A stretch of 64,000 bases of DNA from Bacteroidota bacterium (GTDB lineage Bacteria > Bacteroidota > Bacteroidia > B-17B0 > Aurantibacillaceae): contig JACPOC010000052.1 of NCBI GenBank assembly GCA_016185125.1, forward strand, positions 41,872-105,871. The letters are read 5' to 3'. Position 1 is the stretch's first letter. Every line of letters begins with the position of its first letter. The notes under the pieces are model-generated. The model had not been told where the DNA came from and searched no databases. It worked only from the letters and a program-made list of their open reading frames with translations. Below are positions 39,587 through 46,885 of this stretch, piece after piece. The position numbers and the translations under genes were made by a program.

Positions 39587-39673
39587 ATGATTATGCCAAT
39601 CTCTTTTATATCAATACATGCAAAAGCCCCTGCAACGCTTGCGGCTGTAGAGAGAGAGAGAGAGAGAGACTAA
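39587..39673 (+). CDS. 28-aa mini-ORF, possible leader peptide
   Basis: MIMPISFISIHAKAPATLAAVERERERD*; tail encoded by (AG)10; terminator follows 26 nt later. Confidence 0.4.
   Translation: MIMPISFISIHAKAPATLAAVERERERD
39649..39668. repeat. (AG)10 dinucleotide repeat
   Basis: Direct reading. Confidence 0.95.
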
Positions 39674-39699: not shown

Positions 39700-39735
39700 C
39701 CCGTAACGTTATAAAAAGCGTGTACGGGTTTTTTT
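39700..39735 (+). terminator. terminator-like hairpin
   Basis: CCCGTA-ACG...CGT-g-TACGGG followed by T7. Confidence 0.7.
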
Positions 39736-39756
39736 ATGCTTTAAAATTAAAAACAT

Positions 39757-39977
39757 GTCGTTATGTTTTAAAAACAAGACGTTAATTATTGAAAACAAGA
39801 CGTTAATTATGGATGACAAGACCTTATGTTTTAAAAACAAGACGTTAAAATTGAAAACAAGAGCTTATGTTTTAGAAACAAGACGTTATGTTTTGAAAAC
39901 AAGACATTAAAATTGAAAACAAGAGCTTATGTTTTAAAAACAAGACGTTAATTATTGATGACAAGACGTTAAAAACT
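39757..39977 (+). repeat. tandem array A, ~11 units of 20-21 bp
   Basis: Units begin at 39757, 39778, 39799, 39820, 39841, 39861, 39882, 39903, 39923, 39944 and 39965; e.g. GACGTTAATTATTGAAAACAA / GAGCTTATGTTTTAAAAACAA / GACGTTAAAATTGAAAACAA. Confidence 0.95.
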
Positions 39978-40011: not shown

Positions 40012-40416
40012 ATGGCCAGAAAAACAGTAAGAGTAAAAATACCCCGGGGCAATGCCGATGATATGATAGATTTAATAAAACATGTATTAAAGCATGATAA
40101 AGACCTTGGCAAAAACAGCCTGTTAGATAAGGTAGATGTAACCGCGCTTACCGCGTTGTTAAAAGCAGCAGAGCCCGAGCGCGAAAAAGCAAAAGAACTG
40201 GAAGCCGCCGCGCAGGGTTTTAACCAAAGTGCCAAAAACCATTTGGGCATAAACCGCGACCAAAGCATTAACACACCCAATACAGGCCTATACCACATAA
40301 CACAGGTGCGCGATACTTTGCTTAAAAAACTAAAAGGGGTTGAAGAAAAACTTGGCGAATACGGCTTTAACGTTGCCATTGGCAGTGCTAAAGGCCGGAG
40401 CAAAAAAACTAAATAA
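40012..40416 (+). CDS. uncharacterised small protein
   Basis: MARKTVRVKIPRGNADDMIDLIKHVLKHDKDLGKNSLLDKVDVTALTALLK...NHLGINRDQSINTPNTGLYHITQVRDTLLKKLKGVEEKLGEYGFNVAIGSAKGRSKKTK; preceded by tandem array A. Confidence 0.8.
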   Translation: MARKTVRVKIPRGNADDMIDLIKHVLKHDKDLGKNSLLDKVDVTALTALLKAAEPEREKAKELEAAAQGFNQSAKNHLGINRDQSINTPNTGLYHITQVRDTLLKKLKGVEEKLGEYGFNVAIGSAKGRSKKTK

Positions 40417-46050: not shown

Positions 46051-46241
46051 AGGGGTAAAATAATAATTAAAATTATAAAAATATTTAATGCCAAATAAAT
46101 TTTTGTGTACATAAATGAAAAAAAAAATAACGATTATATTACAGGAGGGCTATTTTCCTATCTATTGTAGGGGCAAGGTTAAATAATAAAAAAAACCGCC
46201 CTTTGCAGATGCGGCTTGTAAGTTTTTTGTAAAAAGTAAAC

Positions 46242-46586
46242 TTAATTAACAGTTGCCGCTTTAGGCCCCAAAATACTATCGTTTAGGCCGCTTACTATTA
46301 ATACCCTAAACCAATATGTAAGGCCGCTTTGCAAATTAGTTATAACCGCGCTATTGGTTATGCCGCGCGCGGCTTCTTTAAAAATGGGGGTTTCTCCATC
46401 ATGAAACTGCCATATATAAACCGACTTCATGCTCTTTTTACATTTTAATTCTACCACGCCCCTATCATCGGGCACTATTACTTCAAAATCAAATTGCGTG
46501 CGAACCGATCGTTTTCTTATCTCAAAAGTGCTTTTAGCAATAGTGTTTTCATCGCCTTGGGCTACTTTTTCAACATAATGCGCCAA
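46242..46586 (-). CDS. fibronectin type III-like small protein
   Basis: VYIWQFHDGETPIFKEAARGITNSAVITNLQSGLTYWFRVLIVSG; preceded by tandem array B. Confidence 0.65.
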   Translation of the reverse strand: MAHYVEKVAQGDENTIAKSTFEIRKRSVRTQFDFEVIVPDDRGVVELKCKKSMKSVYIWQFHDGETPIFKEAARGITNSAVITNLQSGLTYWFRVLIVSGLNDSILGPKAATVN

Positions 46587-46600
46587 TTCTATATTAATTT

Positions 46601-46885
46601 AGATTCTTCCGTCAAAATTTAGATTGTTCCGTCACGGTTTAGATTGTTCCGTCACGATTTAGATTGTTCCGTCACGATTTAGATTGTTCCGTCACGATTT
46701 AGATTGATCCGTCAAAATTTAGATTCTTCCGTCACGATTTAGATTGATCCGTCAAAATTTAGATTCTTCCGTCACGATTTAGATTGTTCCGTCACGATTT
46801 AGATTGTTCCGTCACGATTTAGATTCTTCCGTCACGATTTAGATTGTTCCGTCACGATTTAGATTGATCCGTCACGATTTAGATT
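46601..46885 (-). repeat. tandem array B, 14 exact 20-bp units plus 5 bp
   Basis: AGATTGTTCCGTCACGATTT and variants, in register from 46601 to 46880. Confidence 0.98.

Follow-up and report, generated by a model that had tools for sequence, protein, structure and literature searches.

What is a tandem array of some fourteen 20-bp units doing directly beside a small fibronectin-like reading frame in a Bacteroidota bacterium? The stretch of DNA that contains both, 64,000 nucleotides long and analysed here in its entirety, is referred to below as the window, and the genome from which it comes as G000. We ask what the array is, what has become of the gene next to it, how often such arrays accompany genes of the same kind in other genomes, and which explanation fits the resulting pattern best.

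The array and the truncated gene in the window

The locus comprises the following features:

46597..46885, no strand assigned: tandem array detected by TRF, 14.4 x 20 bp, with the unit AGATTGTTCCGTCACGATTT on the plus strand
46242..46586, minus strand: 5'-truncated remnant of a gene of the helical-bundle plus FN3 family, which retains the FN3 part and the last portion of the helical domain and has no ATG start
46184..46220, minus strand: hairpin (CCGC..GCGG) and T run resembling a terminator, immediately downstream of the truncated ORF and read directly in the sequence

Both TRF and the sequence itself confirm the 14 x 20-bp array described in the initial annotation, with a period of 20, 14.4 copies, 91% matches, zero indels and a score of 480, as compared with a maximum of 85 in 20 order-1 Markov simulations of the window. 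Unit positions 6, 7, 15, 16 and 17 vary, and the remaining 15 are constant across 14 of 14 units. A related array is found elsewhere in the same genome (G000:C42:26351-27036), with 33-34 copies of the window unit and no FN3-type ORF alongside, and all six of the six unit variants of the window array are present in it. When the two arrays are pooled, giving 47 units, variation occurs at the identical five positions and 15 of 20 positions are unchanged. About one helical turn separates the two groups of variable positions in the window unit (6-7 and 15-17); such variability along a helical face is clear in this unit and its C42 relative and weak overall (combined p = 0.04), with these two strongest cases sharing ancestry. 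The possibility of a coding repeat can be ruled out, since the periods seen among the arrays include 20.0, 20.4, 20.7 and 21.6 bp, values that break the reading frame, and for the same reason the period is not a reading-frame effect. The earlier view of the array as non-coding and helically phased is supported. A search of the window against Rfam gave zero matches to structured-RNA families.

As for the ORF, the codon at 46586, previously taken for an ATG, is TTG, with an in-frame stop 12 nt upstream, and what had been described as a small fibronectin-like ORF is without the first 86 residues of a 200-aa paralogue. Namely, it corresponds to the C-terminal 114 aa of the 200-aa protein encoded at G000:C54, with 89% identity, and its nucleotide similarity to G000:C54 stops at window position 46597, which is precisely the array edge. 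Given the missing N-terminal residues and the homology breakpoint at the array edge, the ORF at 46242..46586 is a 5'-truncated gene remnant. What is more, the unit of the window array differs from the array unit of the remnant's closest intact paralogue. Most likely, the window locus represents a late stage, in which the gene of a gene-plus-array cassette (see below) has been cut at codon 87 and is abutted by an array; deletion, array insertion or exchange may have joined the two. None of the 18 relatives checked at the window locus has a 20-bp array there, and a clean empty site is not definable here, as gene content downstream of the adjacent aldolase varies from genome to genome.

The protein families and a second cassette in the window

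In a profile search, paralogues of the FN3-type protein were found in the window's genome at C54, C42, C55, C22 and C5, and homologues in other Bacteroidota families. The distribution of the family is patchy, with 7-13 copies in some genomes and absence from most of the genus. An AlphaFold (AF2) model with a pLDDT of 93.5 predicts a helical bundle at the N terminus and an FN3 sandwich at the C terminus. Foldseek matches in the PDB are confined to the FN3 domain, and the helical domain alone gives zero PDB matches below E = 1. The Pfam model PF00041, with a cut-off of 25 bits, scores above it in two family members (30.2 and 32.6 bits) and under it in the window remnant, while PADLOC models of anti-phage defence gave zero matches at E <= 0.1. 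The idea that the helical part is a faster-diverging specificity domain was not supported (17 vs 19 across paralogue pairs, helical vs FN3), nor is the protein a consistently basic DNA-binding domain, the mean pI being 8.0 and the median for the helical domain 7.9. In one pair of paralogues (L114 and L115, both in G435), the FN3 halves are 95% identical, the helical halves 54% and the arrays unrelated, a pattern that suggests domain-wise recombination.

The window also contains a second array, next to a gene of a different family:

39746..39974, no strand assigned: second array, approximately 11 copies of a 20.76-bp unit, TTAAAAACAAGACGTTATGTT, with three units making up a period of 62
40012..40416, plus strand: intact ORF encoding a 134-aa protein (MARKTVRVK...) from a second small family, 37 bp downstream of its own array
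39700..39735, plus strand: terminator-like hairpin and T run, directly 5' of the array at 39746 and found in both copies of the cassette

This ORF and its array are duplicated jointly at G000:C43, with 92% identity over 715 bp (L146 as compared with the window copy at 40012). The hairpin is kept in the C43 duplicate although the upstream gene is divergent, and a short upstream RNA, if made, would end at this hairpin. Between the divergent upstream gene and the hairpin there is also a short (AG)n run (39649-39670). When compared with the FN3-type family, the 134-aa family showed no significant homology. A 124-aa family in G435 likewise has its own array, at one clear locus. A fourth family, of approximately 250 aa, consists of two tandem helical bundles, the halves of which are homologous to each other at E = 1.5e-10; the homology of its second half to the helical domain of the FN3-type family is suggestive at most (E = 0.003, probability 11%).

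Association of two-turn arrays with the families

How general is the arrangement seen in the window? We counted arrays at 54 loci of the FN3-type and 134-aa families, using a TRF threshold of 90 and one genome per species. An array lies within 700 bp 5' of the start in 42 of these loci, so that arrays of 20-21 bp 5' of homologues of the ORF, which the initial annotation had pointed to as the pattern to look for in other genomes, are indeed strongly associated with it. In total, the 36.4 kb on the 5' side contained 43 arrays, 39 of them with a two-turn period. The corresponding number was 5 for the 37.1 kb downstream of the genes, and 7 for the more distant flanks, which amounted to 303.6 kb. 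Three of the loci with no array (L099, L117 and L133) lie less than 500 bp from the upstream contig end, a place at which an array could have interrupted the assembly. Array-to-start distances in the FN3-type family are 40-600 bp. The leaders are rich in A, some being as short as 37-64 nt, which places the arrays in those cases upstream of or within the 5' UTR. In the tandem-bundle family, two-turn arrays are mostly found on the other side of the gene, 40-240 bp past the stop codon. Since array detection depends on TRF thresholds, two counts can be given for this family: at a threshold of 60, an array lies within 700 bp in 20 of 24 scored loci (15 downstream, 5 upstream), and at a threshold of 90 in 13 of 24 (10 downstream, 3 upstream). 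A clear 3' array at L286 is additional to these counts. In a literature search, chiefly of open-access papers, we found no published description of such a gene-array pattern. The pattern is widespread in Bacteroidota and apparently undescribed.

Averaged over 42 arrays, the period comes to 20.92 +/- 0.28 bp, i.e. two helical turns. The units themselves are private: only 13 of 2,415 pairs among 70 arrays have related unit sequences, and these are mostly recent duplicates or pairs of a gene-linked and a solo array within one genome. Unrelated arrays occur even with paralogues whose proteins are 79-80% identical, or with genes that share 78% DNA identity. At the same time, genes and arrays are duplicated jointly, the common stretch being 1,358 bp in L106/L107, from approximately 30 bp before the array through to the terminator, and 478 bp, comprising gene and array, in L108/L110; the two therefore travel as one cassette. 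In addition, members of a 61-bp repeat family (GAGAATCCGGTGGTCTAAGAAGCAGATTGCTTCGTCATA...) are found repeatedly downstream of cassette genes in G430, as seen at L109 and L106. Within arrays, higher-order periods of 42, 62, 63 and 84 together with mosaic units show repeated duplication. A universal dyad-symmetric operator was considered and rejected as not general, with 6 of 42 units at p < 0.05.

Are such arrays restricted to the vicinity of family genes? In a survey of 20-kb stretches, a small sample in which contigs were not random, 11 intergenic two-turn arrays were found in 800 kb of genomes bearing the FN3-type family and zero in 400 kb sampled from three genomes of the same genus that lack it; if the 11 were evenly spread, the chance of zero in that third would be (2/3)^11 = 0.012. 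Most of the 11 lack an adjacent gene of the family, and such solo arrays lie next to unrelated housekeeping genes or sit in convergent spacers. Three gene-linked units recur in solo form, namely the window unit at C42, the unit of L144 at C9 and the unit of L145 at C59 and C7; a short array of L145-like units also immediately adjoins the solo L144-type array (L166, G000:C9, 4727-4816). At L248 in G424, a decayed gene start beside a solo array resembles the gene at L129, and the unit resembles that of the L129 array, so that this solo array is probably the leftover of a decayed cassette.

Discussion

What could be the role of an array whose period is fixed and whose sequence is not? Our preferred reading, which we hold tentatively, is that these are mobile gene-plus-array cassettes in which the array acts as a phased docking platform, in the manner of a parC centromere or an iteron array. 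The array would be the cis half of a small mobile cassette, the other half being one gene that encodes a small helical-bundle protein. Each private tandem array would offer 8-26 sites, two helical turns apart, and a protein, most simply the cassette's own product, would bind one site per two turns. The bound copies, all on the same face of the DNA, would then assemble into an unbroken nucleoprotein structure, much like ParR on parC or Rep on iterons, and any intrinsic bend would add up in phase at this spacing. Private units would keep the paralogous cassettes of one chromosome from cross-talk, and where a gene decays, its array would persist as a solo array. In particular, the spacing is conserved and the sequence is not, and geometry therefore appears to matter, sites at two turns presenting the same DNA face. 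Private units and a placement on either side of the gene, moreover, fit a cis docking site better than part of a promoter, the 3' arrays of the tandem-bundle family implying that the array need not lie upstream of the start to play its role. That said, protein binding, the cassette's own product as the binder and a role of the resulting complex are what we infer from these patterns: the charge, domain-divergence and dyad tests gave no support for the product as the binder, and no DNA-binding fold was recognised in the cassette protein, for which Foldseek matched the FN3 domain only. Also, since paralogues of high protein identity have unrelated arrays, binding by the own product would need a fast change of specificity.

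It is instructive to compare the cassettes with known systems. The ParR protein of plasmid pSK41 binds 20-bp repeats with a specificity that sets incompatibility (PMC9426499), and ParR forms a superhelix with DNA wrapped round it (PMC5016525). Such type II partition systems, and that of pSK41 especially, are similar in that direct repeats with a period of about two turns adjoin the gene for a small binding protein, whose specificity differs between plasmids, and the tandem direct repeats (~10-20 bp) next to an operon that mark ParR-parC are present here. Unlike them, the cassettes appear to be chromosomal, have many paralogues per genome and 8-26 units, and carry an FN3 domain in the main family. 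ParR is, furthermore, an RHH protein, whereas the model here is a helical bundle plus FN3 with no match to an RHH family in Pfam, and no ParM motor was recognised beside the window arrays or at those cassette and solo-array loci for which ORFs were listed. Iterons are direct repeats of ~17-22 bp beside a gene, with helical-turn spacing and private to each replicon, and the arrays resemble them in all of these respects. They differ in having no Rep domain (no Rep family match in Pfam or NCBIfam), in being apparently chromosomal, in having far more units, in occurring as solo arrays away from replication genes and in lying on either side of the gene depending on the family. The cassettes sit among chromosomal genes, and a plasmid collection gave zero matches for the three proteins tried. 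Finally, some arrays recall CRISPR arrays in combining a conserved with a variable stretch (at L145, CAATTGCAAT plus a variable half); here, however, the unit is 20-21 bp in total, there is no CRISPR-type spacer diversity, and no cas-like gene was recognised in the neighbourhoods inspected.

Could the arrays instead be sites of recombination? On this account, a recombinase or transposase of the host or of another element would recognise the two-turn units and move or exchange the cassettes, with the protein as mere cargo. The patchy distribution and high copy numbers noted above, the occurrence of near-identical cassettes at different sites and the joining, in the window, of an array and a gene fragment of different origins would all be expected of it. 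So would a syntenic site occupied by different family members in two species (L100 at G399:C107 and L141 at G000:C32), where an intact gene faces a 256-bp 3' fragment with 98% identity to the C42 paralogue, as though cassettes were swapped in and out of fixed sites. We nevertheless consider this account unlikely, as neither a target-site duplication nor a terminal repeat was seen at the boundaries examined, the loci inspected showed no recurrent recombinase gene next to the arrays, and phage and plasmid collections gave zero matches for the proteins tried, on which count an origin from a phage or plasmid was also rejected. Equally improbable, in our view, is that the arrays are neutral minisatellites, generated by slippage and unequal crossing-over and tolerated in spacers of non-essential, horizontally spread genes. 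Intergenic minisatellites (VNTRs) do share with them tandem units, higher-order duplication and mosaic variants, many arrays are solo, and array turnover is faster than gene turnover. Yet a neutral process would hardly hold the period at two helical turns among sequences that share nothing, associate strictly with particular gene families, keep to a family-specific side of the gene, leave three genomes of the same genus that lack the FN3-type family with none in 400 kb, or preserve 15 of 20 positions in 47 units at two loci.

There is, lastly, the possibility of a cis-regulatory array, in which a host regulator or nucleoid protein on phased sites would set the expression of the adjacent gene and unit number would tune the output. 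The 5' location in the FN3-type family and the A-rich, in part very short leaders agree with this, whereas the mostly 3' location in the tandem-bundle family and the solo arrays beside housekeeping genes or in convergent spacers do not; what is more, regulation by a host factor would not call for every gene to have its own unit, and we regard this possibility as distinctly unlikely. The length-variable expression switch once proposed for the window ORF is not supported, as this ORF is without its own start codon and N-terminal domain, its array unit also occurs solo, and arrays are mostly 3' in the tandem-bundle family. A simple 5' expression switch is thus disfavoured.

Returning to the docking platform, one may take it a step further and ask whether the chromosomes of Bacteroidota contain a large and so far undescribed class of mobile two-part cassettes, built on a shared helical-bundle scaffold (FN3-fused, tandem-duplicated or stand-alone) and a private two-turn array recognised by the product. 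Each genome would then hold many mutually exclusive protein-DNA address systems, with solo arrays acting in trans. In this general form the proposal is doubtful. Even without a mechanism, the pattern accounts for contig breaks that recur in these genomes and places orphan gene families in a context open to testing. If, in addition, the arrays are private docking platforms, there would be a dozen or more independent protein-DNA recognition pairs per genome, on unfamiliar scaffolds. If true, this would amount to a natural laboratory for the diversification of binding specificity and a possible source of new orthogonal DNA-tethering parts.
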